Shown here piece by piece: positions 14,584 through 44,212 of a DNA stretch of 47,047 nt. The DNA lies in the IMG/VR virus record IMGVR_UViG_3300030388_000730, positions 1 to 47,047 of that record; one strand, written 5' to 3'. Both the position numbers and the translations under genes were made by a program. Origin of the DNA: a virus. Below the pieces are notes generated by a model, which saw only the letters and a program-made list of their open reading frames with translations, searched no databases and was not told the origin of the DNA. Position 1 is the stretch's first letter; each line of letters starts with the position of its first letter.

Positions 14584-17500
14584 ATGGAAGAGAAGAAGTT
14601 AGCACCGACAATACAACCATCAAATGATTTTTGGAATATAGACGAACCTAAAGAAGGAGTACAACAGTACGACTCCTCTTTAGATAGTTCGTTTAATGAA
14701 CCCTCTTCTTCGGAAGGTTTGAATGTTCCCCAAGATGATGTGCCTGTTTATAGACGAAATTTAAATCTAGAAAACGAAGCTATACAGGACGCTACTACAG
14801 CGTGGAGGCAACCAGAGCAACCAAAGGTTGAAATAGACGAGGATATGAACTGGTTTGAAATGGCTGGTAAATCGTTTGTTGTTGGTTTAGGTGATATGGT
14901 GGATAGCTTTGGTGACATAGCTGACTTCATGGGAGGTAGTACTTCTTCTGAAATATCTCAACAAGTATATGGCACAGACACATCTAAACCTATTTCTGAT
15001 TCATTGCATGGTTTTGCTGACTACTTACAGTCTTATGGTGATGACGTTCCTGGATTAGCGGACTTAGAAAATGTAACTTGGGATGATTTATCTGATATAG
15101 ATTTCTGGGGAACGGGCGTAGCTCGTATGCTTCCGTTTGCTTTATCATTAATGATTCCTGCTACGGGTGCTGCTAAATTAGCAGGTATGGCGACTAAAGG
15201 TCGTAAGTTTACTAAGGCTGCTGCAGCTATAGCTAAAGGTTCTAAGTCTATAGGTATAACTAAATATGCTGACCCATTAGTAGCTAGAGGTTTAATAACC
15301 GCTGGTATCTCAACTGTATCTGCGGGTGCTACAGCTAACCTTATAGAAGGTGCTGCATTAGCAGGACAGACATTAAATGAAGGTGTTAAACAAGGTCTTA
15401 CTGAAGCGGAAGCAATGAATGCTGCAAGTTTAGTATATAGAGACAACCTTGCGTCTATGGGTGCTGATATTGTTCAGTATGGTTTGTTCATGGGACAAAT
15501 GGGTATTGGTAAAGGTGCTATAGCAAGTGCACAGAAGTTAGGTGCTAAATTCGCAGGTACTAGCACGGCTAAGGCTGTTGCTGGTGTTGCTGGTAAAGCA
15601 GCTGCAAAGTCAGGAGTTAGTGCTTTAAAAGCTCCAGGAATGAAGGATGTTATTCGTAGTTCATTTAAGGCTATTGGGATGGGTGCGATTCATGGTATTA
15701 CTGATGGTGTTGTAGAGCAATTCCAAGAGGTGTTTCAAGACTGGTCTGTACAAAGAAGGATAGCAGAAGCTAAAGGTGAGGGGGATGAATTTCCTGATTA
15801 CTTAGATTTCTTCTTAGCAGACGAACAAAGACCTACAAGGGTTCTTTCTTTTGCTACAAGTTTACTTATGTCTGGTGCTAGTAATACTATTAGAACAGCT
15901 ACAGAAAACAGAACTACACTACAGACTGCTATAGATGAGAGAAATGAGTCTCATGAAATGATTAAGATATTTGAGAAGGATTTAGATGAAGGAGTATACA
16001 GAACTAAGCGTAAGGTTAATGTAACTAATGAAGACGGTACAATAAGTCAGAAAGAAGTTATAGAGGAGTTAAACGCTGAAGAAGCTAGTAACTGGGGTAG
16101 AGATGCTGCAGCTCATACTATGATTCTTAACGCTGTAAAACAAGGAGATGAACAAGTTATATTAGACTTTTTCCAATCTAAATTAGATTCTGGTAATATA
16201 TCAGAAGAACAGCACAGCTCTTACAAGGGTACTTTTGATGAGATTAAAGCTGCTATGGATGGTAAGCCTAGTAGTACCTTAGATAATAAAGGTAAGACTG
16301 AATTAGTTTATAACTCTTGGCTAAACAGTACAAGTAAAGTTCAGTTAAATAAACAAAAAGAAGCTCTTCAAGCTCAGATTGATGAAATTCAAGCTCAGGT
16401 TGATGATGGTCCATTAGACCAACCTAGTGCTGATATAGAAATTAATGGATTAAAAGAATTAACTAAGTCTTCTTTACAAGCTCAAGAAGAGATAGTTGCA
16501 GCTACAGAGTCAAGGATAAATGAAATCTATAGTGAATCTAAAGTTAGAACGGATGAAAAGACTTGGAAGAAAGATACAGGTAAGAAGTTAGAAAGTATTG
16601 TAGAGAAGGAGCTTAAGGGTGAGGACTTAACGGCTGAAGAACTAGCTTTAACAACTTCAGACGATAAGGCTAAGGAGTTTTATAGCGAGAAGAAACTAGA
16701 AGGACAAAAGTTTAACGCTTTAAAGGCTGCCAAAAAGAAAGCAGGTAGAAAGTTTAAAGGTCATAAAGCTAATGCTGCTAGTTCAAAGGATGGTACTTAT
16801 GTATATACTAAAAGGAATGAGAAGGATAATACTTTAAGTGTTATAACTGTATCTCCTGATGGTTCAGTTGAAATGAAGACTGATACAATTGATGAGAACT
16901 TATCTGAGATAGAGAAAAAATCTAAAGAGAAAAGCGAAGCTAAAACAGAAAAAGAGAAAGCACTTAGAGCTGAAAAAGAAAAAGCTAAAGATGAGAAAGA
17001 CGAAAAAGAAGAGAAGGAGAAAAATCTAACTGAGAAGAATAGTCAATTTAAAGGAAAGGTTATATCTCCTTCGGCACTAGCCTTAGCTAATAAGCTAGGT
17101 ATAGACTTAGAAGAGTCTGGTTTAATAGGTAATGGTAAGGGTAAAAATGGTAGACTTACTAAGGCTGATATAGAAAACTATAAGCCTGAAGTAAAAGCAG
17201 AAGAGAAAGCAGAAAAGAAAGTAGAAGAAAAAGGTAAGGAAACTATACCTAAGTACTTGACTGGTAGCAACTTAAAAGCTACAGCAAAGTTAGCTCTAGA
17301 CGCTACAACTGGTATTATTAAAGCGTTCTTTAATAAAGAAAGAGCCGTAAGAATAGTAGATAAGGTTGAAGCTGCTTTACATAGACGTAAAATACGTAGA
17401 GCGTATACAATGGGTAAAGGTTCGCAAAGAACTCTTGCTAATTTATATGCAAAGAAATCTGCAGACGGATTAATTTCCGTACAGTTTTTAGATGAGATAT

Positions 17501-20500
17501 ATAGTAGGGGCGATGAAGGTGCTGCTTACGCAATGGGATTAGGGGTGTTTATTAACCCAGACGCTGCGACAGACAGTGCTGAAGAAGCTATATTTCACGA
17601 GAACTTTCACATATTTAGAATGCTTTATGGGCATCTAAAAGAAGTTAAAGATATGATGCTGTCCGTAGTAGGTCAGCCTGTATACAAGACAACTAAACTA
17701 GATTACCAAGAAGAGCTTTTGTACTTCTTTGTAGATAAGGAAGGTAATAAGAATACAATGACTCAAGAAGAAGCTTTAGAATACTTAAAGCTTAAGCAAG
17801 AGAATGCATCTCAACAAGAGTTATTTAATGTTGTAACTTCCGTAGAGAAGTATGCCTTAGATAATGGGAAAGATATTACAGAGAAATTACGTAAAGAGTT
17901 CTATGAGTCTTCTTTAAATGTGCTAACACAAGCAGGATTTGTTGAGTTAAAAGAAGAAGCACAAGTACATATACAAGATGAAGCTTTAGCTAAGTTAGGT
18001 GGTTTGTATGGTTCTGTTAATCAAGATTTATTCATTTCTGGTCAAAACAAGACAGAGTACAATAGCAAGCTAAAAGCTTGGAAAGAAAAAATAAAAGATT
18101 CTGTTACTAAAGAAGAAGCAGAGTCTGCTTTTGAAGCTGTATCTAAAGGCTTGTATAAAGCTAATGGAGAGCAGAGTTTAGAGGAACAGTTTAAGAATGT
18201 TAATAAGTTAATAGCTGATAACAAAGCTAAGTACGGTGCTTACACTGCTACAACTCAACAGTCATTAAATAAGAAACTTCTAAAGCAGTCTAGAGTAATA
18301 GATGAAGTTAATTATTTACTAAATGACTTAAAGGGCTCTGTTCATCAAAGAGCTAAAGCATTTGTAGCTACTGAACTAGATGTGATACTTAAGGTAGATA
18401 AGAAAAAGGACTTTACTGTTAATGAATTATCTAAATATATACAGGAGAAGTTACTACTAACTGAGAGTATAAATAAATCTTATGTAGATATAGCAAGTGA
18501 TGTACTATCTGATTATTATAACACAAAAGACTACAAACAAGCTTTACAGTTAATAAGAAACAATGAGGGTACGATAAAAGCTCTTATTCGTAATCAACAC
18601 CTTACAGGTCTTACAGCTGAAGCTTCTAAGGTTTTATCTAAGAAGTTGTCTGAATCTGATAATGCCTACTTAAAAGCTTTAGAAGCTAAGTTCTCTAAGG
18701 CTCAGAAGGAAGTTCTATCTACGGATAATAATGGTGATAAGTTATCTATTGATGCAGATGATATATTCTCTGCAATGATAGATGATAACCCTCAGCAATT
18801 GTCTGATAAGTTATATTCTATTCTTGAGTTCCATTTACAAATTGTAAGTCAAACTTACAGAAGGGATGTAATCATTGGTAAGGATAAATTATTGTTCCAT
18901 ATAAAAAGTTTTGCCCAAGGAAAGACTAAAGAGGAGTTTGTTAAAAATGCTTATGGTCTTATAGATGCATTAAGGTTACAAGAAGCAGGTAAGAGCTTTA
19001 CCTTCATGGAAAATAACGACGAGCATGTTGCCAGATTCCTTACAACTTTAGTAGAGCAACATGAGTTAATGCCAAAGACTGCAATACCATACACAAAGAA
19101 AGGTGCTAACATGGCATTTGGTTCTGTATTAGGTGGGTTATATCTTCAGATGAACTCTATGACTACAGAGAAAGGTCTCTTTCTTACTGCTGATGGATAC
19201 GCTCCTGCTTTGTCAAGACAAGACGCAAATAGAGTACAGACTGCTCTTAAGGATGCTGTAATGTTTGGTTCTGAGTTTTTAAATAAACAAAGAACAGGTA
19301 ATGTACCATTAGGTTTATTAACTGAGAATGTTAATGCAACACCTACAAATGAAAGACAAGCTGGAATGTTATCTCAGCTTAGAAAAAGAATACTATACAC
19401 TAGGAATTTAGCACGTCTTGTATACGCTCCTAAACACACATATGAAAAAGGGCAACGAGACAAAGACTTACTTCATTTTATAAACGCTTTCTTTTTACCA
19501 TTTGGTACTAACGAGAGTGGAGCTTCTTTTAATTTCAATGAATTAGCTTTAGATGAGTTCCGTATATACGATGAAGAAACAAAAAAGAACCTTACGCTTA
19601 GAGAGTACTTTGAAGGCGACAGGCTTAAAGCTTTATATAACCAATCAATTAGTTTTGATTTAGCCGAGAGCGTTAAAAATAACAATATTTCTCTTGAAGA
19701 CTTAAAGAAAAAAGCTAATGCTGATGTGTTTATGCCGTTCTTTATTGCTAAAATAAGAAACAAGATAGGTGGAGATAAAATACAAGACAATACACTTATA
19801 GATAAAGATATTATGTCTCAGATTAGAGACGACTTTGATAAGCAAATTGAAGACGCTTACAATTCTATGGATAAGTTTCCTGCAGATAAAGTAGATGATG
19901 TTAAATATGTTCAGACACTTCCTGAAGCTGGTTTAACTAATTCCCCTAAAGGACCAGAATATCAAAGGAATGGTAAAGTTACTAGACAGATTAAGCTTAC
20001 AGAATTAAAGACTGAAGAGCAAAAAGAAGCCTATGCTAAGAAAAACGGGCTTATGTCCTTTTCCACTTCTGGAATACAGCCTGGCGAAAAAGTATGGGAG
20101 AGAGAGATAGTAAAAGAGTGGAAGACTTCTGAAAGGGGTTCTATTGCTATGTATACTGTTATAGGTGAAGACGGAGGGAAGAATAATTCTAGTTCTCTTA
20201 ATGATTTACAGGGGCATAAAAAACTAGCACAAGCAGTTATAGCCACATTTAATTCAGAGCATAACGAAGGTTACATGTCTACTATATTGACACCAGAAGA
20301 CAAGACTCTTAATCTTAATACAAGAAAGTACTTCTTAGAATACAATGCAGACTCACTAAGAGACTTTATGAATAAGGGTGACGGAATGGCTTTTGCTGAA
20401 TTATTCTCTTACGAAGGGTATCAAAACCCTTATGCTATGAGGGCTCTTGAGGATGACTATAAGTTAGAGTTCCTTTCTTTACTTGGTGATTCAAAATCTG

Positions 20501-23500
20501 AATTAGATAGACAAAACATATCTAGTGTAGGTATTACTGAAGGAGATATTAATGAAATTAATAGGGCTTTAAAGTCTGGGTCTAAAGAATATAATCAGGT
20601 TGTCCGTGACTACTCTGATAAGTCTAGAAGATACTACGCTAAGGCTACTCTAATTCCTGCAGACAATCAATACAACTTAGAAGGTGGTGTTGCTATATTT
20701 ATAGAGAATGCTGTAAGCAATCGTAATGACTTTACTGAAGAACAATTAAGAGCTATAGATAAGCACTTAGAGTTAATGGTTGATATAACCGCTACTAAAA
20801 GTCAAAAGTTATTAGCTTTAAATAATGTTAAGAGAAAGTATGTAATGGCTGTAACCACAGAGTTGCAAGCCAAGATGGATGAGGTCGTAGATTACCACAA
20901 CGCTAAGACTAGAGAGATTATAGCTAATCATAATAGCAACAGTGACTTTGACTTGTTTAAGGTTACTGGTCAAGCCACTATAGATAGCTTATTATCAGAA
21001 GGTTATAAAATAAAGAACTCTGACACTCAGAAGTCTAAGGTAAAAGGAGAGCTTAACCTATTAGGTAAACTAGCGTTCCAACAAACTATAAATGGTAAGA
21101 TTCAATACTTAAATAATGTAGAGACTCATGTAGCCATGATGGATAAGTTAGGAAGAAGTCCTCTCGATGCCGTATCTTCTATGAATTACTTTACAAACAA
21201 GTTCTGGTTACAAGACCTGAATGCTAACACAATGGAAGAGCAGAATTTTAGTATGAAGAATAAGCGCTCTACGGGTCTTATTGCTCCACACGATTCTTCT
21301 TATTCTGGCAACAGAGTAGAGACCATTATTTTTGATGACCAAGATTTAGAATTTGAAAACGAATCTCAGAAAGTACAAATATTCAATTATGAAACAGGTA
21401 AACTTGAAGAGGTAACACTAACTCCTAAGCTTGCTGATTCAGCCTCATACATAACGCAAGAGGAAGCAACAAGATTAGAGGGTAATCATGGTGGTTTATC
21501 TGATGTTAAGGGCTCATTCAAGCTTGTTGGATACGGTAGAAATGTAGACAACAAAAGGATAGCTTCTCATACAGGGCAGAAATCTAATCAATTCTACTTT
21601 AAAGGTCATACTATTGTATTAAACAATAAGGTTAGAGGACCTCTTAGTGGAGTATATAAGTCGTTAAAAGCTAGAGAGAAGTTCTATTCTGATGAAGGTT
21701 TAAAGAACCATAGAGTTTTATCTTATGCAGATAGTGGTGTTAAGAAGTTTAACATTAAAGGAGTTAATACATTCTCTTTAAAGGAGTTAAATGATGGAAA
21801 CTTTGACCTTAATGGTCGTTTAGATAAGTGGAGTTACGATGAGGTTAACAAACTTAGAGGATTTGATGGTAGATTCTTTGGTGTACAGAATGAGTTAGAT
21901 AAAGAAGCTAATTCAGCAACTGTAGCAAAGCAAGGTATATCTAACATGAATGTATTTGCTGACCACTGGGATACGAACGTACAAGCTCTTTCTCAGAAGG
22001 TTATGAATGCTTACGCACTTGCTTTAGATTTACAATATAACGAAGAGATTGCTAGCCTTACATACGAAGGATTAGCTAAACAAGATATGGAGTCATCATC
22101 TATGCCTCCTGTCCAAGCTGTTATGTTCCAAGAAGGTAACGATTCTTTACCTACTATTAGAGCGAGAGTTCTAGAGTTGGCTAATTCTAAATTAAGAAAA
22201 AAAGGATTTAAATTAAGAACTGAGGGTACTCTATCTTTACAAGAGTCTGATATAATTCAAGGATTTGAAATGTCAGGTGAGGGTAAATTGGTAGAAACAG
22301 ACAAAGCTTTAAAGCCTATTAGTGTAAGCGGTACAGAAGGTAACTTAAAAGTATCGCATGCTGAAGCATCTATATCTCAACACATGGCCAAAATGCTAGG
22401 TGTAACTAAAGAGGATGTAGAAAAAGCTAGAACTAGTGGTGAAGAAATATTATTTCTTGCTACTCGTATACCAGCATCATCTGCAGGTTCTACTGTAGTA
22501 TTGAGAGTTGCTAAAATATCTGACAAGCAAGGTAATACTATTGCTGTTAACTCTAAGACCTCTTCTATTATGGGAGCTGACCTCGATGGGGATATGCTAC
22601 ACATTAATATAGTAGAGACAGGTAAAGATTTAACTGACTTACAGAATGCTAAAAATAACGTTATACAATCTATTATAGATTTATACTCAGAGCCTTCTGT
22701 GGTTAATATGTTAATTCAAGAGATTGAAATTGAATCTACTACAAAATCTAGTAACCTTGCTTTGTTTGGAAATGAAGAAGGAAGTACTGAAGTAAATAAT
22801 GATTTAGGTTTATTAGGTGCAAGTAATATATATGAGACGACTAAGGGTAATGTACCGATGATTGGTATAATTGCATCTCAGAACCTTATGTACAACTATA
22901 TATCTCAAGGTAATCCTGAACTTCTTTATGATGGTACAGCTATAGAGTTTCAAATTGATAAAGGGTTTAGTAAAAGTTCTTTAGGTTTAGATTTTTATTC
23001 TAACAATAAAAAGTTATCAGAAATTGGAACTGCAGAAGAGTATTCAGAATTCTTGGAAACAGTATTCCCTAATAGTGAAGTGAAGGACGTTGTGTATAGA
23101 GGCTCAGACCCATTAGCTTCAAGCTCAACATATCAATATTTTACAACAGTAAAAGGAGAAGCAACTCTTTTTGCTAAAGCTAACGTTCCTAAAAGCGGTA
23201 TAATTTCTGAAAGAAATCCTACCAATTCTATTGATAAAAACTTTAAAGAGGGATTAAAAAATAAGTATGATGAAAGTCTAATAAAAAGTTTATATCATGA
23301 GCCGCTAGCTCCAGATGACTTTTTTAAAGGATTTGTACCAAATGCTATAAACAAACTTAGTCCGTCTGATAAGTCTATTTTTAACAAGATAGAGAAGTTA
23401 AAAAGAATGTATGATATAGTTAAGATAGAATCAGAGAGTGATGCAATGAAGCCATTTGATGATACAGACTATAGAGACACAATAGATGATTATAAAAAAT

Positions 23501-26500
23501 TATTAGCCGAATTAAAATCTTTATACTTTAAATCAAGTGACGTAGGGAAGGTACAGGAAGTATTGCTAAATATTAAAAACTCATACAAAGAAGAGATAGT
23601 ACAAGAAGATTTACAAAACAATAGAGATGCTTATAAAAATGGTCATGACGGGGCTATGCTTAATGATGGCGACCACTTCCTTGTTAAAAGGGATACTAAT
23701 CAAATTCACGAACTAGGCTCAGAAAAAGACATACAAGGATTTAATAATTTTGTAGCATCGAATAAATCTACTTTAACTACACTAGATAACGTAGTTAAAA
23801 AAGATGGTACTGGAACTTACTATGAGGTATGTAAGTACTTAAACTTAGTATTAGATGATGGTAAGAATAATAACAGAGCTAACTTCCAATTCATAAAAGA
23901 AACTGCTGGACAGTTTATAATGATGATGAAGTATGGTATTAAGCCTGCTCAAATATCTACGTATATAAGAGATATGAATTGGGCTGCCCTTAAAGGGTTG
24001 AACTCTAAGGAGATATACGATAGGGCTAATGAGGCTGCAATGAGCTTAGATGCTGAATACAACATAGGAGGTGAAGAGCCTGCAAATTTAAGTCAAGTTA
24101 TACAGTCAGTTTTTGGTGGTGGAGTAGGTCTTTCTTTTAACATACCTTCTATCGCTGAAGAGTCTAAGAATGATGAAAAAGATGTTAATGATAAAGCTAT
24201 GCTTCTTTATTATGTTACTAGTCAGATAGGTCAAGACCTTAAAGATTTAAGTCTATTCGTAGGTTTAGATAAGAAGTTTACTGCAAACCCTCTTGACAAC
24301 TTAATACAACATCAAGCAGCGTTAGAAGCTTTAAAGGTTCAACCAAGTATAGATGAAAGATTAAGAGCAAAGAATCCTTTGTATAAGAGACAGTTAGAAA
24401 CAAACGAAAAGCTTATACAGAAAGCTATAGACGAGTCTGCAGAATTAAGTAATGGTTATGCTGAAGGATTACTTGGGGATTACAATTTCGAAGAAGTTAA
24501 AGGTACTTCAGGAATTTTAGGTATAGAGAATATTCAAAATAGTGCTGGTGAAGATATACCTCTTGGAATATTTAATAAAAACCTAAACGGTCTAGTTAGT
24601 GACTCTGATTTAATAAGTCAACTGACTAAAGCTTTAACGTTATCAAGAGCTCTTATTCATGCTGGTTATGATGTATCTAATAAGATTCTACAACTAGGTG
24701 GTATGTTTAAGGAGGAAATGGGGCTTAAATACGAAGAGTTTGCTGCACTACCAACAAATGCAGGAAAGTTAGTACACCTAACAACTGCTGCTGGTAATGT
24801 AGCTAAAGCATTCCAAAACGATAACTCAAACAATCAGAACAAATGGTTGGGAGCTGACGGTATACTAAAGATTATGCCTACTAAGGGTTATATAACAGAG
24901 AAAGGTAAAACACAAATAGCAGATTATATTAAGTTTGATATAGATGTTGCTAAGCTTCAACGAGAGTTAGAGTTTACTGAGCATGTTGATATATATAGAA
25001 AGGATTTTGAAAAGCTTCCTGAATCCCTTAAGAGGTTCTTAGTATTTAATGACTTGTTATCAACTGGTTGGGGTTCTAAAAACCCTGGAAAGTCTATGAT
25101 ACCTTACATGTCTGCTGCTTATTCTTCTAAAGTGAATAGTATGTTTAGTGTTATAAACGACCCAGCTGTAAGTAACTTCACTGATGACATGGCTATAATG
25201 AAAGAAAAGCTAAGTCATATAATGAACTTCACTGGGGATAATGAACTAGACAACAGAAGAATTGCTTTAGTGCTTCAGATTGGGTTGAATGGCCCTAATG
25301 CTAAAGTGACTACTAATACAAAGACTGGAGAATCAACTATAAGGAATAAGCATAATGGAGGGTTGTTTACTGTAACAACTAATAAGATAGGTGCTAACCC
25401 ACTTAATCAAGTGTCTGAAATTAAATTTGATAAACAAGCAACTTCTGCTTATAGAGATGTAAACCCTTCAGAAACTTTCCCATTCCAATATGGTAAAGGA
25501 ATCCCTTATTTCAATCAGTTTCCTGAGTTATCAATGCTCAACACTATGGAAGCTTTAACTAAAGTTAAGCATGCTGAGAATGGTACTTCTGTACATGAGG
25601 TTAGTAAAGGGCCTAAAAAGAAGTTTTTAAAGATAGCATCTCATAGTAGAGACCATTTCGGAGATACAGGTGTTGCTTACACTAAAAATGAGTATGCAGC
25701 TAAAGTTCTACTTAAAGGTCAAAAAATAGAAGATTTAAGTGAGAACATGCAGGAAGACCTGGATTTAAGGTTTAAAGTTTATGAAGAGTCTGTAAAACGA
25801 GCTGCTGAAATAAATAAAGAAATTAGTAAGGAATTAGACGATACCATATACAGACTAGACCATAATAATAAAGAAAAGAGCAAGAAAGCTTTAGATAAAA
25901 AGTTTGAAGATGTTAGAGATATATACACTAACCTTAGAGATGTAATAGATAAAAGTACTGTAGTTATAGGTAAAGAGTCTTACAAGTTAGATTCTATGGC
26001 TTTTGATACATTACTTCGTTTAGCTCAACATAACTTTGGTAATCATATAGCTGAAAAACAAATCACTGATTGGGAGTATGCACACGGTAAGAAATTTGTA
26101 GAAACGGTTATCAATGAACAACACAAAAAATCTAAAGATATTTCTAGATTAAATCTATGGATGTCTCCAGGTGATTTTGGTAAAACTAAGCCAGCGATAG
26201 CTTATATAAACAAGAACATCAAAATGACTCATATGAAGTATACAAGAAACATATCTCTTGTTGCTAAAGAAATGAACGATAAATTGGATTCCTTATTCAA
26301 GCACAAGTTTGGTAGCGATTTAGCTGCTAAAGGAATTAAGGCTTTTATGGCTTACATGCCTATAGGTACAATGGGTTATAGTGAAAAGTTGTTTGAGAAT
26401 TTCTACAAGTCTTACACTGGTCTTGAAAAGATAACAGATAAGGAAGGTGTAGTATCTTACAGAGATAGGTCTAATTTAGAGTTGCACCCAGATTTATTTA

Positions 26501-28689
26501 ACAAAGGTGGTAAGTATGGTAATACTATATCTTTAAAGAAAGAAGGTAAAAAATACAAAAATTTACACGAGTCTGAGAAAGAGTATATAGAAATGTATGT
26601 TAAGTATACAAACTTCTACAAAGAATTAATAAAAGCTAAAAACTTATATAAGACGACTAAAGGAGCTAACTATGTTGCTAACATAAACTCTAGTACCTGG
26701 GAAACTTACCATAGAAGAGGTTTGTTCGGTATGTACTACCAAATGTTTAAGGGTGATGAAATGCTTTCTGATGTAATGATTAAAGGTGTTAACCCTATAA
26801 CGGGTGAACCAGCAACTTTAGATTACTTTAGTTGGAAGGCTATCTTTATGCATGCTCCAGGAGAGTCGTTTAAAATATCAAGAGCTCAGATAGTTAAAGG
26901 TGGGGTAAAGATGATTTCTTCTAAAGGTAATAGCAAACAAGTTATGACTGGAACTCAAAGAGTTGAAGCATATAGAGTTATACAAAAAAGAGCTCAAGAG
27001 TTATGGGACAACAAGAAAGACGACAACGATAACGATATAAACGTAACATCACCAGTTAATGACGTTATGGCTTTAGAATCTGAAGAAGCTGTTAACAGGT
27101 ATGTACACTCACGTTCTATGACTTCTGGTTACTTAGCCACTCATAATATACACCAGGCTTTAAACACTTATGTAAGAGACTTTATGTTCTTGCATGGTAA
27201 TATGTTCTATGACCCTAAAGCTAAAGTTTGGAATACTCTTTCGTGGGCTGGAAACGATAAAGCTTTAGAGCACTCTTATATAAGCGACAAAAAAGTTACT
27301 GATTCTAGATATTCTGGATTAAAGCATATAAGGTCAAACGAAGGAGATGCAAGTCTTAAGGATTACAAGCTGGCTTTTTCAGGATTTAATGATAAGACTG
27401 CTGAGATAGATGCAGCTATGTCAAGTCTTGGAGATAATCATATAAACGCTAGAAAGTTTCTACAGAAAGTAGTTAAAGAAGGATTCCTTATTAAAGAAAA
27501 AAATCTTACTTTGAGTGACTCTTCATCTAAAATTACGAGGTATACATTTGGACAACAACCAGAAAAAGTTCTAGCTAACTTCTTCACTCAATGGACTATG
27601 TATATTGCATTAGGATTTAATATTCCTGCTGCAAAAGGTAACGTGTTGATTGGTAAATACAATGCTTATAGACAAGCTGGTGGTAAAGCCTTAATAAAAG
27701 GTGAAGCTAGATATTGGGGATTAAGTAGCGATAAGATTTACGACAACTCTGCTAGGCTTAAAGCTCGTAAGATGATTGACGAACTAGGTATACTTACATA
27801 TCGTGCAGAGGAATTAGCCGAAGGTTTAGGTGCAAGTTCTTTAAGTTCTGTTGTCTTCTACCCTATGGTAGCTGCAGAGAATTGGATACAACAAGCACAA
27901 TTTTTAGGTCAATTAACTCAAAAGCAATGGGATGGTTATTTTATAGACAAGAACGGAGACCTTAAATTTAATGGAGCAGAAGAAGATAGACTAACTCAAC
28001 AGGATGTAGCTACCTTAGAAAGAAAAGTAATTGATGTACAAGGTAGAGGGTATTCCGAAACTGATGTACGTTACATACAACTATTCTCTCTTGGTACTAT
28101 GGCCATGCAGTTTAAAAGATGGTTTCCAACTTTCTTAGCTGACAGGTTTAAGTCTGAAGATGTGGATGACTTAGGTAATTTACGTATGGGCTCAATAATA
28201 GGAGCTAGGAAGTTTATAGATAAAATGCATAAGGAAGGTAAGCTGTGGAAATTTAGTGAGTTTAGAAAAGAACTTAATGAGAACTTTAAACCGCACGAAC
28301 GTGAAGCTGTAATGAGAGTAATGTATGGAACTAACGGTATTATGGTTGCTTCTTTACTATACGCTATAGCTATTGCTACTAATGATGATGACGAGCCAGA
28401 AGATGAAACTGCTAAGTTGTTTGAGAAACTTTTAGGAGATATGCTTTTATTAGGTAACGTTCCAAAGCTTACGTATATGACTAACATACCTGCAACAGAC
28501 ACGATAGAAAATTTAGCTCTTGCACTTTATCATACAGCAAAACAAACTGAATACCAACGTAAAGCTAAGTATGGAGATAAAGGAGACTTAAAATCTGTAG
28601 CACACTTTGCAAGGTTATTACCAGCTCCTCTTAGAAAACCTTTACAGTTAGAAAATAAAAAAGACAAAAGACAAAGACCTTTAAACTAA
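14584..28689 (+). CDS. Giant multidomain virion protein with RNA polymerase-like, peptidase-like and ADP-ribosyltransferase-like segments
   Basis: This 4701-aa open frame has no interruption. Visible in order: hydrophobic Ala/Gly segments at about 180-203 and 236-262; a Lys/Glu linker (773-819); an E3-binding-like domain (826-866, SPSALALANKLGIDLEESG then GRLTKADIENY); a second Lys/Glu linker; HENFH at 1005-1009 in EEAIFHENFHIF. Then come segments found in two-barrel RNA polymerases of phages: DSASYIT (2285-2291), YFKGHTIVL (2338-2346), FFGVQNEL (2431-2438), R2628-x-P2630, and GAD2666-L-D2668-G-D2670. An ADP-ribosyltransferase-like segment follows (FPNSEVKDVVYRGS at 2828-2841; HELGSEKDIQGFNNF near 3045). 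The C-terminal 900 residues include FSLGTMAMQFKRWFPTFLADRF-type sequence split over about 4500-4520, and one hydrophobic stretch at 4585-4599. It ends the internal-virion gene run, so injection with DNA is likely. Catalysis is inferred from motifs only. Confidence 0.8.
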   Translation: MEEKKLAPTIQPSNDFWNIDEPKEGVQQYDSSLDSSFNEPSSSEGLNVPQDDVPVYRRNLNLENEAIQDATTAWRQPEQPKVEIDEDMNWFEMAGKSFVVGLGDMVDSFGDIADFMGGSTSSEISQQVYGTDTSKPISDSLHGFADYLQSYGDDVPGLADLENVTWDDLSDIDFWGTGVARMLPFALSLMIPATGAAKLAGMATKGRKFTKAAAAIAKGSKSIGITKYADPLVARGLITAGISTVSAGATANLIEGAALAGQTLNEGVKQGLTEAEAMNAASLVYRDNLASMGADIVQYGLFMGQMGIGKGAIASAQKLGAKFAGTSTAKAVAGVAGKAAAKSGVSALKAPGMKDVIRSSFKAIGMGAIHGITDGVVEQFQEVFQDWSVQRRIAEAKGEGDEFPDYLDFFLADEQRPTRVLSFATSLLMSGASNTIRTATENRTTLQTAIDERNESHEMIKIFEKDLDEGVYRTKRKVNVTNEDGTISQKEVIEELNAEEASNWGRDAAAHTMILNAVKQGDEQVILDFFQSKLDSGNISEEQHSSYKGTFDEIKAAMDGKPSSTLDNKGKTELVYNSWLNSTSKVQLNKQKEALQAQIDEIQAQVDDGPLDQPSADIEINGLKELTKSSLQAQEEIVAATESRINEIYSESKVRTDEKTWKKDTGKKLESIVEKELKGEDLTAEELALTTSDDKAKEFYSEKKLEGQKFNALKAAKKKAGRKFKGHKANAASSKDGTYVYTKRNEKDNTLSVITVSPDGSVEMKTDTIDENLSEIEKKSKEKSEAKTEKEKALRAEKEKAKDEKDEKEEKEKNLTEKNSQFKGKVISPSALALANKLGIDLEESGLIGNGKGKNGRLTKADIENYKPEVKAEEKAEKKVEEKGKETIPKYLTGSNLKATAKLALDATTGIIKAFFNKERAVRIVDKVEAALHRRKIRRAYTMGKGSQRTLANLYAKKSADGLISVQFLDEIYSRGDEGAAYAMGLGVFINPDAATDSAEEAIFHENFHIFRMLYGHLKEVKDMMLSVVGQPVYKTTKLDYQEELLYFFVDKEGNKNTMTQEEALEYLKLKQENASQQELFNVVTSVEKYALDNGKDITEKLRKEFYESSLNVLTQAGFVELKEEAQVHIQDEALAKLGGLYGSVNQDLFISGQNKTEYNSKLKAWKEKIKDSVTKEEAESAFEAVSKGLYKANGEQSLEEQFKNVNKLIADNKAKYGAYTATTQQSLNKKLLKQSRVIDEVNYLLNDLKGSVHQRAKAFVATELDVILKVDKKKDFTVNELSKYIQEKLLLTESINKSYVDIASDVLSDYYNTKDYKQALQLIRNNEGTIKALIRNQHLTGLTAEASKVLSKKLSESDNAYLKALEAKFSKAQKEVLSTDNNGDKLSIDADDIFSAMIDDNPQQLSDKLYSILEFHLQIVSQTYRRDVIIGKDKLLFHIKSFAQGKTKEEFVKNAYGLIDALRLQEAGKSFTFMENNDEHVARFLTTLVEQHELMPKTAIPYTKKGANMAFGSVLGGLYLQMNSMTTEKGLFLTADGYAPALSRQDANRVQTALKDAVMFGSEFLNKQRTGNVPLGLLTENVNATPTNERQAGMLSQLRKRILYTRNLARLVYAPKHTYEKGQRDKDLLHFINAFFLPFGTNESGASFNFNELALDEFRIYDEETKKNLTLREYFEGDRLKALYNQSISFDLAESVKNNNISLEDLKKKANADVFMPFFIAKIRNKIGGDKIQDNTLIDKDIMSQIRDDFDKQIEDAYNSMDKFPADKVDDVKYVQTLPEAGLTNSPKGPEYQRNGKVTRQIKLTELKTEEQKEAYAKKNGLMSFSTSGIQPGEKVWEREIVKEWKTSERGSIAMYTVIGEDGGKNNSSSLNDLQGHKKLAQAVIATFNSEHNEGYMSTILTPEDKTLNLNTRKYFLEYNADSLRDFMNKGDGMAFAELFSYEGYQNPYAMRALEDDYKLEFLSLLGDSKSELDRQNISSVGITEGDINEINRALKSGSKEYNQVVRDYSDKSRRYYAKATLIPADNQYNLEGGVAIFIENAVSNRNDFTEEQLRAIDKHLELMVDITATKSQKLLALNNVKRKYVMAVTTELQAKMDEVVDYHNAKTREIIANHNSNSDFDLFKVTGQATIDSLLSEGYKIKNSDTQKSKVKGELNLLGKLAFQQTINGKIQYLNNVETHVAMMDKLGRSPLDAVSSMNYFTNKFWLQDLNANTMEEQNFSMKNKRSTGLIAPHDSSYSGNRVETIIFDDQDLEFENESQKVQIFNYETGKLEEVTLTPKLADSASYITQEEATRLEGNHGGLSDVKGSFKLVGYGRNVDNKRIASHTGQKSNQFYFKGHTIVLNNKVRGPLSGVYKSLKAREKFYSDEGLKNHRVLSYADSGVKKFNIKGVNTFSLKELNDGNFDLNGRLDKWSYDEVNKLRGFDGRFFGVQNELDKEANSATVAKQGISNMNVFADHWDTNVQALSQKVMNAYALALDLQYNEEIASLTYEGLAKQDMESSSMPPVQAVMFQEGNDSLPTIRARVLELANSKLRKKGFKLRTEGTLSLQESDIIQGFEMSGEGKLVETDKALKPISVSGTEGNLKVSHAEASISQHMAKMLGVTKEDVEKARTSGEEILFLATRIPASSAGSTVVLRVAKISDKQGNTIAVNSKTSSIMGADLDGDMLHINIVETGKDLTDLQNAKNNVIQSIIDLYSEPSVVNMLIQEIEIESTTKSSNLALFGNEEGSTEVNNDLGLLGASNIYETTKGNVPMIGIIASQNLMYNYISQGNPELLYDGTAIEFQIDKGFSKSSLGLDFYSNNKKLSEIGTAEEYSEFLETVFPNSEVKDVVYRGSDPLASSSTYQYFTTVKGEATLFAKANVPKSGIISERNPTNSIDKNFKEGLKNKYDESLIKSLYHEPLAPDDFFKGFVPNAINKLSPSDKSIFNKIEKLKRMYDIVKIESESDAMKPFDDTDYRDTIDDYKKLLAELKSLYFKSSDVGKVQEVLLNIKNSYKEEIVQEDLQNNRDAYKNGHDGAMLNDGDHFLVKRDTNQIHELGSEKDIQGFNNFVASNKSTLTTLDNVVKKDGTGTYYEVCKYLNLVLDDGKNNNRANFQFIKETAGQFIMMMKYGIKPAQISTYIRDMNWAALKGLNSKEIYDRANEAAMSLDAEYNIGGEEPANLSQVIQSVFGGGVGLSFNIPSIAEESKNDEKDVNDKAMLLYYVTSQIGQDLKDLSLFVGLDKKFTANPLDNLIQHQAALEALKVQPSIDERLRAKNPLYKRQLETNEKLIQKAIDESAELSNGYAEGLLGDYNFEEVKGTSGILGIENIQNSAGEDIPLGIFNKNLNGLVSDSDLISQLTKALTLSRALIHAGYDVSNKILQLGGMFKEEMGLKYEEFAALPTNAGKLVHLTTAAGNVAKAFQNDNSNNQNKWLGADGILKIMPTKGYITEKGKTQIADYIKFDIDVAKLQRELEFTEHVDIYRKDFEKLPESLKRFLVFNDLLSTGWGSKNPGKSMIPYMSAAYSSKVNSMFSVINDPAVSNFTDDMAIMKEKLSHIMNFTGDNELDNRRIALVLQIGLNGPNAKVTTNTKTGESTIRNKHNGGLFTVTTNKIGANPLNQVSEIKFDKQATSAYRDVNPSETFPFQYGKGIPYFNQFPELSMLNTMEALTKVKHAENGTSVHEVSKGPKKKFLKIASHSRDHFGDTGVAYTKNEYAAKVLLKGQKIEDLSENMQEDLDLRFKVYEESVKRAAEINKEISKELDDTIYRLDHNNKEKSKKALDKKFEDVRDIYTNLRDVIDKSTVVIGKESYKLDSMAFDTLLRLAQHNFGNHIAEKQITDWEYAHGKKFVETVINEQHKKSKDISRLNLWMSPGDFGKTKPAIAYINKNIKMTHMKYTRNISLVAKEMNDKLDSLFKHKFGSDLAAKGIKAFMAYMPIGTMGYSEKLFENFYKSYTGLEKITDKEGVVSYRDRSNLELHPDLFNKGGKYGNTISLKKEGKKYKNLHESEKEYIEMYVKYTNFYKELIKAKNLYKTTKGANYVANINSSTWETYHRRGLFGMYYQMFKGDEMLSDVMIKGVNPITGEPATLDYFSWKAIFMHAPGESFKISRAQIVKGGVKMISSKGNSKQVMTGTQRVEAYRVIQKRAQELWDNKKDDNDNDINVTSPVNDVMALESEEAVNRYVHSRSMTSGYLATHNIHQALNTYVRDFMFLHGNMFYDPKAKVWNTLSWAGNDKALEHSYISDKKVTDSRYSGLKHIRSNEGDASLKDYKLAFSGFNDKTAEIDAAMSSLGDNHINARKFLQKVVKEGFLIKEKNLTLSDSSSKITRYTFGQQPEKVLANFFTQWTMYIALGFNIPAAKGNVLIGKYNAYRQAGGKALIKGEARYWGLSSDKIYDNSARLKARKMIDELGILTYRAEELAEGLGASSLSSVVFYPMVAAENWIQQAQFLGQLTQKQWDGYFIDKNGDLKFNGAEEDRLTQQDVATLERKVIDVQGRGYSETDVRYIQLFSLGTMAMQFKRWFPTFLADRFKSEDVDDLGNLRMGSIIGARKFIDKMHKEGKLWKFSEFRKELNENFKPHEREAVMRVMYGTNGIMVASLLYAIAIATNDDDEPEDETAKLFEKLLGDMLLLGNVPKLTYMTNIPATDTIENLALALYHTAKQTEYQRKAKYGDKGDLKSVAHFARLLPAPLRKPLQLENKKDKRQRPLN

Positions 28690-40288: not shown

Positions 40289-40483
40289 ATGGCTAGTAAA
40301 GGTTTGTACGCTAATATACACGCTAAACGCAAAAGAATAAAAGCGGGTAGTAAAGAAAAGATGCGCAAGAAAGGTAGCGATGGAGCTCCTACTAACGCAA
40401 ATTTTAAACGAGCAAAAAAAACTGCAAAGAATTATAAAAATGGTGGTATGGTTAATTGTAATTTTGATAAACAACATGACTAA
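40289..40483 (+). CDS. Small highly basic protein
   Basis: This 64-aa protein is rich in Lys and Arg (YANIHAKRKRIKAGSKEKM), followed by DGAPTNANFKRAKKTAKNYK and a C-terminal NGGMVNCNFDKQH. Small proteins of this type are common in phage late regions next to structural genes. It is the middle gene of a basic cluster and overlaps the next gene by one base. It may bind phage DNA or a scaffold; no proof. Confidence 0.6.
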   Translation: MASKGLYANIHAKRKRIKAGSKEKMRKKGSDGAPTNANFKRAKKTAKNYKNGGMVNCNFDKQHD

Positions 40484-40782
40484 TGCCTAGAAAAAAAGAC
40501 ACACCAATACGAAAAACTACTAAAGGTAAAGGAGCTAATTACAGACCTACTAAAAGTGGTGCTGGAATGACAGCTAAAGGTGTTAAGGCTTATAAGAAAG
40601 CTAATCCTGGTAGTAAACTTAAGACTGCCGTTACAGGCACAGTTAAGAAAGGTAGTAAGGCTGCGGGTAGAAGGAAGTCATATTGTGCTAGGTCTGCTGG
40701 TCAGTTAAAGAACAGTAGTGCTAAGACAAAGAATGACCCTGATTCAAGAATAAGACAAGCTAGAAGAAGATGGAAATGTTAA
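40483..40782 (+). CDS. Basic DUF6321-like phage protein
   Basis: This 99-aa, very basic protein ends with a motif typical of a small phage family: GRRKSYCARSAGQLKNSS followed by DPDSRIRQARRRWKC. The Cys pair in SYCAR and RWKC is the hallmark. Family members occur widely in marine phages, usually with unknown or proposed DNA-binding function. The N-terminus is Lys/Thr/Gly-rich and likely disordered. It overlaps the start of the exported protein at 40770 by 13 bases. Confidence 0.7.
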   Translation: MPRKKDTPIRKTTKGKGANYRPTKSGAGMTAKGVKAYKKANPGSKLKTAVTGTVKKGSKAAGRRKSYCARSAGQLKNSSAKTKNDPDSRIRQARRRWKC

Positions 40783-41819
40783 AGCAACTACTATATTTAA
40801 TATTATTTTGTCCGTTAATAGCTAACGCACAATTATTAAAGTTTGCTACGTTCTATGCAAGTTTTTCAACAGGAGCTCCGTTTTCAGAAAACCAATCATT
40901 TATCGTTGATGGTGTAGCTGGTTCAGGACAGTTAGTAGAAATTACTAACGTAAGCAAACCAAATTACAATGTAAGCATTGGTCTTAGAAAGATAGCACGT
41001 TTTAATTACCAAGTAAAACAAGGTAATTTTTACACGGGCTCAGAGAATGAAATAAGTGATTACGCTACAATATCTAACGCTCCTGGCTTAGAGTATTTAT
41101 TTGAATATTCCTCTATACGAAATAGAGGTATGACGTTTCGTCAACATGAATATAAACTTAGGTACATATCAAACAACTATACAGCAAGAGCATCGTATAT
41201 AGATGATGGATTAATTGACCTTAAATACACTCTGAGCGAGGTTAGGCTACGCAAAAGTTTTGGTAATCTCGACCTTACTTTAGGCGTAGCCCATCGTTCT
41301 CACCCTGTATATGGTTACTCTCCAATTACAGAATGGTTTGCTGACCCTTTAAACAAACACTGGTGGCAATTAGCTCAGGAGTTTGGTGTTTTTAGTACAA
41401 CAGGAGGTAGTGAAGATTGGATGCAGATAGATACAGAGGCAGGTACTGCAGAGTGGATTGCTGAGTCAGATAGAGAGTTCTATATGTATTATTTTGGTGA
41501 CCTAGTTAATAGATACAACAAAGAACAACTCGACCTTTTAGGGTTACAACAAGAAGTTTCTGCAGTTGTAGGAGCTGATTATTATCTCTATACAACACAG
41601 TCATGGATACACGCTTGGGTTTCCTTATACCCTATACACAAAGGGCTGAGTGATTATTCATATTCTTATCCTAACAAACAGACTGAATGGGATTTAGGTT
41701 TTGTGGCAGGCTCAAAAGTTAACAGACATTTTAGTATATTTGTAGAAGGAAGACATCTCAAGTACTGGGATATACTTTCTTACGAAATGAAAGTTGGATT
41801 AAATTATATAATATTCTAA
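40770..41819 (+). CDS. Predicted outer-membrane beta-barrel protein
   Basis: This 349-aa protein has an N-terminal signal peptide (MLKQLLYLILFCPLIANAQ, cleavage after NA) typical of Bacteroidota. Long runs of alternating amphipathic beta strands follow (NVSIGLRKIARFNYQVKQG; HEYKLRYISNNYTARASYID; YTLSEVRLRKSFGNLDLTLG). The C-terminus ends in Phe in KVGLNYIIF, the classic outer-membrane barrel signal. The start could be the ATG at 40770 or 40776; the second gives a cleaner signal peptide. An export-competent barrel does not belong in a virion. Its place directly before membrane and lysis genes suggests a role in the host envelope, such as lysis support or blocking superinfection. No known family was recognised. 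Confidence 0.6.
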   Translation: MEMLKQLLYLILFCPLIANAQLLKFATFYASFSTGAPFSENQSFIVDGVAGSGQLVEITNVSKPNYNVSIGLRKIARFNYQVKQGNFYTGSENEISDYATISNAPGLEYLFEYSSIRNRGMTFRQHEYKLRYISNNYTARASYIDDGLIDLKYTLSEVRLRKSFGNLDLTLGVAHRSHPVYGYSPITEWFADPLNKHWWQLAQEFGVFSTTGGSEDWMQIDTEAGTAEWIAESDREFYMYYFGDLVNRYNKEQLDLLGLQQEVSAVVGADYYLYTTQSWIHAWVSLYPIHKGLSDYSYSYPNKQTEWDLGFVAGSKVNRHFSIFVEGRHLKYWDILSYEMKVGLNYIIF

Positions 41820-41822
41820 ACG

Positions 41823-42101
41823 ATGGCTAAAGAATTAAGTGAAGATACTTCAATACAATTAAGTTTAAAAACATTAGGCGGTATAGCTTGTGGAATTGCA
41901 ACTCTAGTAGGTATGTGGTTTGTATTACAAAACGATATAGCAGAGGCTAGAAACTTACCCTTACCTATAGACCCTGTTATTACTCGTATGGAGTTTGATA
42001 TGAAGGACAAGCTAGTCCGTCAAACGATAATGAATACACAAGACGATGTATCTGAGATTAAAGAAGACATGAAACTTATTAAGCAAAAACTTTATGAATA
42101 A
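41823..42101 (+). CDS. Small membrane protein with coiled-coil tail
   Basis: This 92-aa protein has one membrane segment at about 18-36 (LGGIACGIATLVGMWFVLQ) and a C-terminal coiled-coil (about 65-92, DDVSEIKEDMKLIKQKLYE). The topology recalls inner-membrane spanin subunits or holin-like regulators, but without a spanin partner lipoprotein the name cannot be assigned. It overlaps the following secreted thioredoxin-like gene by 8 bases, so the two are probably made together. It lies between two exported proteins and upstream of the endolysin-holin genes. Confidence 0.5.
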   Translation: MAKELSEDTSIQLSLKTLGGIACGIATLVGMWFVLQNDIAEARNLPLPIDPVITRMEFDMKDKLVRQTIMNTQDDVSEIKEDMKLIKQKLYE

Positions 42102-42462
42102 GTTTATATGTTTATTACTGATTACTACAAATATTGTAGCTCAAGAGTTCATCACTTCTAGCTCATTTGATTCTAAAACAGCTAAAGGAATAGTGGTAAT
42201 TGAATTCTACGCTGCATGGAACGATGGTAATAAAGTTGATTTTCTACCTTCATTAAAAGATTGCAATAGTTATAAGCTATCTATTGTTAACAACTCTTTA
42301 ATACAACAACGTTTTAACGTTACTTCTATACCTACCTTGATTGTCTTGAACAACGGTATTGAAGAAAAGAGATTTAACCCTAACATAATGATGCAGTTAA
42401 AGACTACCCAAAAGGAAGTCCAGTCATTTATAGATGATATAATATTTAACAAATTTCAATAA
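42094..42462 (+). CDS. Secreted thioredoxin-fold protein lacking the CxxC motif
   Basis: This 122-aa protein has a signal peptide (MNKFICLLLITTNIVAQ). It then has a thioredoxin-like core: strand VVIEFYAAWNDG at 34-45 where the redox CxxC would be, and the cis-proline loop VTSIPTLIVLNNG at 76-88 with Pro80. The CxxC cysteines are absent; the position after FYAAW reads NDGN. It therefore cannot act as a standard disulfide reductase, but could bind peptides or serve as a chaperone-like or structural protein in the periplasm. It overlaps both neighbours and belongs to the exported cassette. Confidence 0.6.
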   Translation: MNKFICLLLITTNIVAQEFITSSSFDSKTAKGIVVIEFYAAWNDGNKVDFLPSLKDCNSYKLSIVNNSLIQQRFNVTSIPTLIVLNNGIEEKRFNPNIMMQLKTTQKEVQSFIDDIIFNKFQ

Positions 42463-43010
42463 TGAATAAAGAGAAACTTGAAGAATATGGGTGGATAGTA
42501 TTAGTTACAGCTTTACTATTTTTTGTAATAATGTTTGCATCAAAAACAGCTAATGCTCAACAGCAAACAGTGTTTGTAGAGTGTACAACAGGAGAATACC
42601 CTGCTGAAATTACTTGGCAGATACTTACCTGCAATGGTGGCATACTACTAGAAGGTATATCTCCTTACTTAGGTGCTGTTGTTTTGCCAGAGTATTACCA
42701 GATAAGTATGATAGATTCATACGGTGATGGATGGAATGGTGCTTATCTTTATATAGACGAAACAGAGTATGGATTTTTATCTGATGTAGATTGGATAGAC
42801 TCTCTTGGTACTTGGCCTCAAGAGTTTAAAGAACAGCTTGTAGATGTAGGTTGTCTTACAATAGGAATTAAAGAGTTAGGTGATTCAAAATTTATTCCAA
42901 CACATTATTATGATGTATTGGGTAGAGAAGTAAAACCCGTTAGAGGTTTCTATATAGCAAGCGACGGCATACTAACTAGAAAGATTTACATAGATGAGAT
43001 TAAGCGATAA
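42462..43010 (+). CDS. Exported protein with a T9SS-like C-terminal region
   Basis: This 182-aa protein has a hydrophobic N-terminus with a signal-peptide-like cleavage after NA (WIVLVTALLFFVIMFASKTA then NAQQQ). A small extracellular domain contains the motif DSYGDGWNGAYLYI. The C-terminal region is THYYDVLGREVKPVRGFYIA then LTRKIYIDE. The pattern 'Y(D/N)xLGREV...G.YI....KI' resembles the type IX secretion C-terminal sorting domain of Bacteroidota, here in short form. If functional, the protein would cross the outer membrane through the host T9SS. The last 17 bases overlap the endolysin gene. The short tail could instead be a relic of a longer host-like protein. Confidence 0.55.
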   Translation: MNKEKLEEYGWIVLVTALLFFVIMFASKTANAQQQTVFVECTTGEYPAEITWQILTCNGGILLEGISPYLGAVVLPEYYQISMIDSYGDGWNGAYLYIDETEYGFLSDVDWIDSLGTWPQEFKEQLVDVGCLTIGIKELGDSKFIPTHYYDVLGREVKPVRGFYIASDGILTRKIYIDEIKR

Positions 43011-43449
43011 TTTTGTACTGTCTGAGATAACTCGAAGCAATACAGCTAAACGATTAGGTATAGACAATGGCCCGAATAAAGAACATTTACAAAATATTCA
43101 AAGGATTATTACTAATCTTATACAGCCTATGCGTGACGCTATTGGTCCTATTAGGATTAGCAGTGGTTACAGGAATCCAAATGTCAATCGGGCTATCGGT
43201 GGAAGTACTAAAAGCCAGCATTGTAAAGGTGAAGCTTTGGATTTGCAATTTTGGAACGATGGCCAAATATCTAACAAAGAAATTTATGACTGGGTACTTA
43301 GAAGCAATGTTGAGTTTGACCAAATGATTAATGAGTTTGACTTTGCCTGGATACATATCTCTTTAATTAAAGAAGGTAATAGAAAGCAGGTGTTGGAGGC
43401 TTATAAAGACGAAGACAACGATACTAAATATAAATGGGCAGACCTGTAA
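42994..43449 (+). CDS. Peptidase M15-family endolysin
   Basis: This 151-aa protein belongs to the M15 group of zinc peptidases, which cut peptidoglycan stem peptides. It has RISSGYRNPNVNRAIGG, then S74-Q-H76-C-K-G79-E-A81-L-D83 (the SxHxxGxAxD zinc motif), and the second metal site W119-I-H121-I-S123. All key residues are present, so it is probably active. No signal peptide is visible, so release needs the holin that follows. It starts inside the previous gene and its stop shares a TAATG with the holin gene. This is the clearest enzyme in the lysis block. Confidence 0.85.
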   Translation: MRLSDNFVLSEITRSNTAKRLGIDNGPNKEHLQNIQRIITNLIQPMRDAIGPIRISSGYRNPNVNRAIGGSTKSQHCKGEALDLQFWNDGQISNKEIYDWVLRSNVEFDQMINEFDFAWIHISLIKEGNRKQVLEAYKDEDNDTKYKWADL

Positions 43450-43832
43450 TGAGTAAACTACTAAACATATTAGGGGGAAACATTATATCTAGTGTAGGTA
43501 ACATAGTAGATAACCTTACAACCTCTGGTGAGGAAAGATTAGCCGCTAAGAAAGCTATAAAAGAAGTTCTTATGAAAGCCGAAGCACAGGCTCAACAAGA
43601 AGTCACAAAGCGATGGGAAGCTGACATGAAGTCTGACAACTGGCTTAGTAAGAATATACGACCACTGATATGCATATTTTTAACTGCAATATTTGTGGTT
43701 GTTTCTATTTTTGACGGAAACGCTGGTAGTTTTGTTATATCACCATCTTATATACCTATTTATCAAACACTTCTTATTACTGTATATGGTGCATACTTCG
43801 CTGGAAGAACCATAGAAAAGATAAAGAAATAA
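43449..43832 (+). CDS. Three-TM holin
   Basis: The start at the ATG at 43449, within TAATG, gives a 127-aa protein; an upstream in-frame ATG at 43434 would add five residues inside the endolysin gene. The N-terminal half is helical and charged. A motif typical of the 'holin of 3TMs' family follows (DNWLSKNIRPLICIFLTAIF), then hydrophobic helices and the C-terminal phrase YGAYFAGRTIEKIKK. The protein would form lesions in the inner membrane that release the M15 endolysin. The arrangement of endolysin then holin, with overlap, supports this. Confidence 0.78.
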   Translation: MSKLLNILGGNIISSVGNIVDNLTTSGEERLAAKKAIKEVLMKAEAQAQQEVTKRWEADMKSDNWLSKNIRPLICIFLTAIFVVVSIFDGNAGSFVISPSYIPIYQTLLITVYGAYFAGRTIEKIKK

Positions 43833-44212
43833 TGATTGAGTATTTAATAATACATTCTACAGGTACAGAGAAAGATTACGTACCTGAAAAGAAAGAATAT
43901 AATTTAACTGTATCTTGCGATATAATACACTTCAACGGGCAACTTTCAAGATATAAAGCTGGTAAAAATCAACCACCTACAGATGAATCCTATAAGCATA
44001 TAGCATATATAGGAGGTAAATTAGATGGTAAATCTTCTGACACCGCAACTTGGAGGCAATACGATAGCATGGAGAATATAGTAATGTATCATTTACTATA
44101 TAACCAGAACTTAAAGATAGGTTACTCTTCTTTATTTTTTAACACTGATGCTGGTATAAAAGTTAGAAGGTGGTTGGAAGATATAGGCATTAACAAAAAA
44201 AACATAATGTAA
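43832..44212 (+). CDS. Degenerate N-acetylmuramoyl-L-alanine amidase-like protein
   Basis: This 126-aa protein starts with EYLIIHSTGT, like the first zinc-His strand of amidase_2/T7-lysozyme-type enzymes. A segment HIAYIGGKLDGKSSDTATW matches the 'hSIGi.yeGG.....DtrT' region. The usual Tyr, the second zinc His, and the C-terminal Lys/Cys site are missing; the C-terminus reads FNTDAGIKVRRWLEDIGI where 'KACPSFD' would lie. It therefore probably binds or has lost zinc catalysis, and may be a regulator or peptidoglycan-binding relic. It follows the holin with a TAATG overlap. Confidence 0.6.
   Translation: MIEYLIIHSTGTEKDYVPEKKEYNLTVSCDIIHFNGQLSRYKAGKNQPPTDESYKHIAYIGGKLDGKSSDTATWRQYDSMENIVMYHLLYNQNLKIGYSSLFFNTDAGIKVRRWLEDIGINKKNIM

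Follow-up and report, generated by a model that had tools for sequence, protein, structure and literature searches.

What do genes for a predicted outer membrane (OM) barrel and other exported proteins do when they lie directly beside the endolysin and holin genes of a phage? Work on spanins leaves open how phages without them breach the OM (PMC6139136, section 15). In that review, no spanin could be identified for approximately 13% of phages, Bacteroides and Croceibacter phages among them, and an OM protein (OMP) was proposed as a possible o-spanin (PMC6139136). In a later survey, u-spanins were the only spanin type reported for Bacteroidetes phages (PMC12596118). The locus examined here lies in a window of 47,047 nucleotides that is part of a 54,917-base IMG/VR virus record (IMGVR_UViG_3300030388_000730; the record may be incomplete), downstream of the head and tail genes of the source phage. 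An initial annotation had flagged its genes, here called B, C, T, S, E (endolysin), and H (holin), as a possible new envelope or lysis system that may replace spanins.

Results

Gene organization of the locus

All six ORFs are present in the order first described and mostly overlap, on the plus strand. B (positions 40770 to 41819) encodes 349 amino acids (aa), C (41823 to 42101) encodes 92 aa, T (42094 to 42462) encodes 122 aa, and S (42462 to 43010) encodes 182 aa; the genes for an M15-family endolysin (42994 to 43449) and a holin (43434 to 43832) follow. C and T overlap by 8 nucleotides (nt), and S and the endolysin gene overlap by 17 nt. The set had been described as ending at 43449; the holin gene runs beyond this point, to 43832, while the other coordinates hold. 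The endolysin contains a Peptidase_M15_3 domain (PF08291, 1.6e-17) and matched phrog_894 (1.1e-32) and 1lbu (0.001). No signal peptide was found in it, and the five envelope-directed genes initially counted thus come down to four products predicted to be exported or membrane bound. The holin is a three-transmembrane (TM) protein of the GTA_holin type (PF11351, 1.9e-6, with 28.9 bits, above the gathering score of 24.8; phrog_3427, 3.7e-27). Comparisons with close relatives (at least 55% aa identity) gave dN/dS values of 0.06 to 0.22 per gene, and the six ORFs are therefore real genes under purifying selection; the exception to this range was S compared with its far copy in locus L004 (0.62). 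Promoter and terminator scans gave results at or near the shuffle level, and a search for fusions among the module genes found none.

The holin gene is followed by a gene of 126 aa (43832 to 44212, plus strand), which is kept with the holin in 15 locus clusters; it had no significant Pfam or PHROG match and appears amidase-like by eye only. On the other side, a plus-strand gene for a basic DUF6321 protein (40483 to 40782; PF19846, 5.4e-12) runs 13 nt into B. This gene is outside the module and is common to pelagiphages and cyanophages. Its DNA is about 73 to 77% identical to that of several pelagiphages over about 270 to 300 bases, and cyanophage DNA matched near the same positions, such that similar DNA occurs in phages of different host phyla. 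The structural region of the window contains a single giant ORF of 4,701 codons (14584 to 28689; 14.1 kb), and giant ORFs also lie a short way upstream of B in loci L207 and L208.

B is a predicted OM barrel found in viral contigs

B has a signal peptide that ends in ANA, with Q21 as the first mature residue, and an aromatic C terminus (NYIIF). An AlphaFold2 (AF2) model built with 63 homologs (mean pLDDT of 80.8) contained twelve long strands and was used instead of a model built with five barrels only (pLDDT of 36.5). The signal peptide, the closed antiparallel barrel, and the C-terminal aromatic residue are those of an OM barrel, the predicted location of B, and the barrel called by the initial annotation is now backed by the 63-sequence model. 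Q21 is present in 61/63 homologs and F349 in 54/63. The structural neighbors of B (Foldseek/VIA) were the OM barrels NanC, KdgM, Tsx, EstA, and OMPLA. The acidic-oligosaccharide channels NanC and KdgM were the top matches, but barrels of other functions (Tsx, OMPLA, and EstA) scored within about 1 Z of the best, and with several OM barrels at similar Z, fold searches alone do not give the function of B. B resembles the 12-strand porins KdgM and NanC, and OMPLA, in its predicted 12-strand OM barrel fold; it differs from them in sequence (∼10% identity), in a large external segment (residues 180 to 258), and in being confined to viral or virus-like contigs in our searches. By strand parity, most of the invariant polar or charged residues of B (R73, E108, R131, R159, R161, R176, E326, and N345) face the lumen, and the invariant lumen residues are of the types Arg, Glu, Tyr, and Trp. 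These residues suggest ligand binding or transport and to that extent count against an OM-opening role.

No sequence relatives of B were found in Pfam, in the PDB, or, by tblastn, in cultured phages. A search of 295 Bacteroidia genomes returned one metagenome-assembled genome (MAG) only, already among the known relatives, and the matches on MAG contigs look viral. An enzymatic B, with an OMPLA-like H-x-S in AHRSHP, was considered and dropped; the H and S lie outside the positions conserved in at least 48/63 homologs. Some barrels (L106:2586-3644, L127:4560-5654, and L201:3182-4309) have a lipobox-like Cys together with a CC[AG]Q signal-peptide end (ISCA.PKKCCAQ), and two processing routes are therefore possible.

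C is a small membrane protein and T is a redox-dead thioredoxin fold

C has one TM segment (about residues 14 to 36) followed by a short heptad-like helix (V76, I79, M83, I86, and L90), which suggests a coiled-coil protein anchored in the inner membrane with its helix in the periplasm. Only ∼55 of its residues are predicted to be periplasmic. C is kept in 104 clusters, mostly at 89 to 97 aa; it gave a weak Rz-like PHROG match (phrog_7686, E value of 0.049) and no tblastn match in cultured phages.

T was initially described as a secreted thioredoxin-fold protein, and both the fold and the signal peptide (ending in IVA, before Q17) stand. T is homologous to thioredoxins (PF00085, 1.5e-5, above the cutoff; PDB thioredoxins, 2e-7), with which it shares the fold, the cis-Pro, and the Trp that precedes the active-site motif. 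T differs from thioredoxins in its predicted export and in lacking the CXXC: its active site reads W-N-x-x-N in place of W-C-x-x-C. Because both Cys residues of the WCxxC motif are Asn, T is redox dead rather than an active thioredoxin. The substitution is conserved, with N43 in 109/109 relatives, N46 in 108/109, P80 in 109/109, and C57 in 101/109; in a second set of relatives, NxxN was present in 122/122. In cultured phages, tblastn with T gave weak thioredoxin matches only.

S is a secreted accessory with a T9SS-like tail

S has a Sec-type signal peptide (ending in ANA, before QQQ), a domain with the pattern YPxExxW...DSYGDGWNG, and a tail (YYDVLGREVKP..GFYIASDG..RKIYI) that resembles a short T9SS type A sorting end. 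The T9SS-like end initially assigned to S was borne out in some relatives and not in the S of the window. The S of the window matched neither TIGR04183 nor PF18962, as did none of 35 window-type tails, while S homologs of one other group, located in the same slot, gave a T9SS type A match in 12/12 scanned tails. The tail of the window S is related to A8-group tails (hhalign, 95.8%) and scored only 13% against confirmed T9SS tails. Homologs of S range from about 160 to 1400 aa. S was present in 24/30 B-seeded loci and was detected in none of the divergent C-seeded loci; S is thus dispensable, and the core of the module is B-C-T. A phage-encoded T9SS cargo has been described for Cryophage (PMC7468147). 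Relatives of S likewise carry T9SS type A sorting ends, but their genes belong, along with B, C, and T, to a fixed module that in most cases adjoins lysis genes, and the T9SS model does not recognize the window's own S.

Export signals point to a Bacteroidota host

Substrates of SPase I in Bacteroidota follow a "Q-rule," with Gln at position +1 of the mature protein (PMC5837995). Mature B, T, and S of the window all begin with Gln, and among relatives, Gln was found at +1 in 61/63 B, 98/109 T, and 77/82 S proteins (the last by a simple heuristic). One relative of the module sits in a Flavobacteriales MAG; the remaining MAG matches, whose labels name unrelated taxa, appear to be viral contigs binned in error. 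Because the +1 Gln fits the Q-rule and a relative occurs in the Flavobacteriales MAG, the evidence for a Bacteroidota host, as first suggested, is strong but indirect. Some T genes (L177:5289-5651 and those of L179, L200, and L203) are without the +1 Gln and perhaps belong to phages of another host phylum.

B, C, and T are co-conserved and B and T codiverge

A lack of co-conservation had been named at the outset as a result that would refute the proposal; the three genes proved to be tightly co-conserved. The first comparison covered about 111 distinct contigs, and co-occurrence was counted in loci with enough flanking sequence, with "near" defined as within 4.5 kb. C was adjacent to T and B was within 4.5 kb in 44/44 T-seeded loci, and C and T were present in 30/30 B-seeded loci; in the more divergent sets, T and B accompanied C in 60/61 and 61/61 loci, respectively, and C and T accompanied B in 33/36, although these counts are not independent events because the loci share ancestry. 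The matches listed included over 580 stretches that encode B. The gene order varies (BCTSEH, HBCTS, BSCT-U6-H, and CTSB), and in locus L095, unrelated small genes lie between module members, with the set still together. The set holds even where B identity falls to about 30%. On some contigs, which may be incomplete, C and T occur without B. The B-T distance correlation was 0.80 over 91 clusters and 0.74 given C. Over 56 clusters with a holin, the correlation was 0.85 for B-T, 0.34 for B-H, and 0.39 for T-H.

Other genes recur near the module. About seven loci have a gene for a DUF2279-like small exported protein (L012:7304-7606; 1.3e-5, just below the curated cutoff) inserted between C and T, and a similar-looking gene follows T in L237. 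Several loci have, next to the module, a gene of the PAP2-like phosphatase family (L104:4173-5036; PF01569, 5.8e-6, just below the cutoff).

The module adjoins lysis genes without a recognizable spanin

The proximity to lysis genes seen in the window holds for most relatives. A recognized endolysin or holin gene was within 4.5 kb in 54/68 loci and in 57/61 loci of the C-seeded divergent set. In the other 14/68 loci, no recognized lysis gene was found within 4.5 kb, and in several of these, the module lies among small late or structural genes. A contiguous B-C-T-endolysin arrangement is frequent, and the type of the neighboring endolysin changes (M15; Amidase_2 in L206; DUF5675; and a further family, which hit an endolysin PHROG at 6e-13).

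A strict lipobox scan of both strands of the 54.9-kb contig, which may be incomplete, found no lipobox ORF, and a relaxed scan found one antisense ORF near 2.5 kb; as a control, the scan recovered lambda Rz1, lambda Bor, and the T7 o-spanin. By the strict scan, the contig thus carries no canonical o-spanin or u-spanin, although one may be encoded elsewhere in the phage if the record is incomplete. A search for a recurrent lipoprotein beside the module in 111 loci found mostly chance ORFs or B and T members with lipobox-like N termini. A 66-aa lipobox ORF lies just upstream of B in L125 (3972-4172), and L126 has one as well; it is possibly an o-spanin-like gene of a subgroup.

The module shares with two-component spanins (lambda Rz/Rz1 and T7 gp18.5/18.7) a lysis-gene neighborhood and overlapping genes, and C, as a small predicted type II inner membrane protein with a periplasmic helix, would be i-spanin-like. 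It differs in that the lipobox partner is absent and its place is taken by a barrel integral to the OM and a soluble protein with a thioredoxin fold; it also often adds a surface-directed fourth protein. With unimolecular spanins (T1 gp11 type; PMC12596118), the module has in common the apparent host phylum and the proposed task, but it has no lipobox ORF by the strict scan and consists of at least three proteins. Because it lacks the lipoprotein, we do not class the module as a spanin; because no known system searched has such a composition, we call it new in kind.

Discussion

The B-C-T module is a genuine and widespread gene set, of which the sources searched contain no description. We see an even chance that B, C, and T, with S where present, form a lysis-linked module that acts on the OM and works like spanins without being one of them. 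The three proteins would be made late and exported through the host Sec/BAM machinery, B to the OM and C to the inner membrane, with the helix of C in the periplasm. T, as a redox-dead fold, may serve in the periplasm as an adaptor whose main docking partner is B, and S may be a surface-directed accessory, which in some relatives at least is T9SS cargo. Together with the adjacent holin and endolysin, B, C, and T would open the OM of the Bacteroidota host in a spanin-like manner, with an integral OM protein standing in for the o-spanin lipoprotein. The replacement of spanins first suggested is compatible with the data. Several observations count against an OM-opening role: a surface-exported S is needless for opening from inside, C has only its short periplasmic part, some loci have no lysis neighbor, and on some contigs, perhaps incomplete ones, C and T lack B.

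The main rival to OM disruption is late remodeling of the surface or superinfection exclusion. In this reading, the four products would mask or alter the phage receptor, shielding both the infected cell and the released progeny, and the location beside lysis genes would reflect late expression only. Such an action on receptors has been proposed for Llp- or Lom-type proteins. The T9SS type A ends in one group of S homologs, which mean that these are meant for the outer surface, the wide spread of S lengths, and the 14 loci without lysis neighbors fit such a role, and the lambda envelope gene bor likewise adjoins Rz/Rz1. We nevertheless judge it unlikely, if worth serious attention, given that the conservation of B-C-T is far above the expectation for receptor-masking genes, that S went undetected in the divergent C-seeded set, and that contiguous B-C-T-endolysin recurs with differing endolysins.

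The lumen of B and its closeness to NanC and KdgM could instead reflect an Arg-lined porin of that kind that imports anionic sugars or nutrients, with T and C as accessories; barrels of unrelated function score nearly as well, however, and by the module, it is lysis genes that are linked and no transporter or sugar-enzyme genes that recur, which makes this reading improbable. That the proteins are virion or ejection components for crossing the envelope at infection would agree with a late region that also holds tail and structural genes, and in some loci (L183 and L207), the module comes directly after giant ORFs. This we regard as very improbable, since B, T, and S carry signal peptides followed by the +1 Gln typical of Bacteroidota, which indicates export from the infected cell and not packaging. 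Least credible is a set of unrelated accessory genes hitchhiking together in one phage lineage: many loci do share ancestry, so that their counts are not independent, but the set has stayed intact despite changes of order, the separation in L095, and the depth of B divergence.

Returning to OM disruption, a stricter reading, if it proves true, could be that the module is a variation on the spanin step of lysis. We put at somewhat below even the broader proposal that B-C-T represents a third, lipoprotein-free class of phage OM disruption, in which a barrel and a redox-dead thioredoxin adaptor replace the o-spanin and by which abundant uncultured marine phages lyse Bacteroidota. If the module instead remodels the surface, it would reveal a widespread, undescribed rewriting of the Bacteroidota envelope by phages, with the host T9SS used in some relatives. 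Hundreds of uncultured marine phages, apparently of Bacteroidota, carry the module beside their lysis genes. It thus provides named, co-conserved candidate genes on at least several hundred viral contigs and makes the idea of an OMP acting as o-spanin testable.
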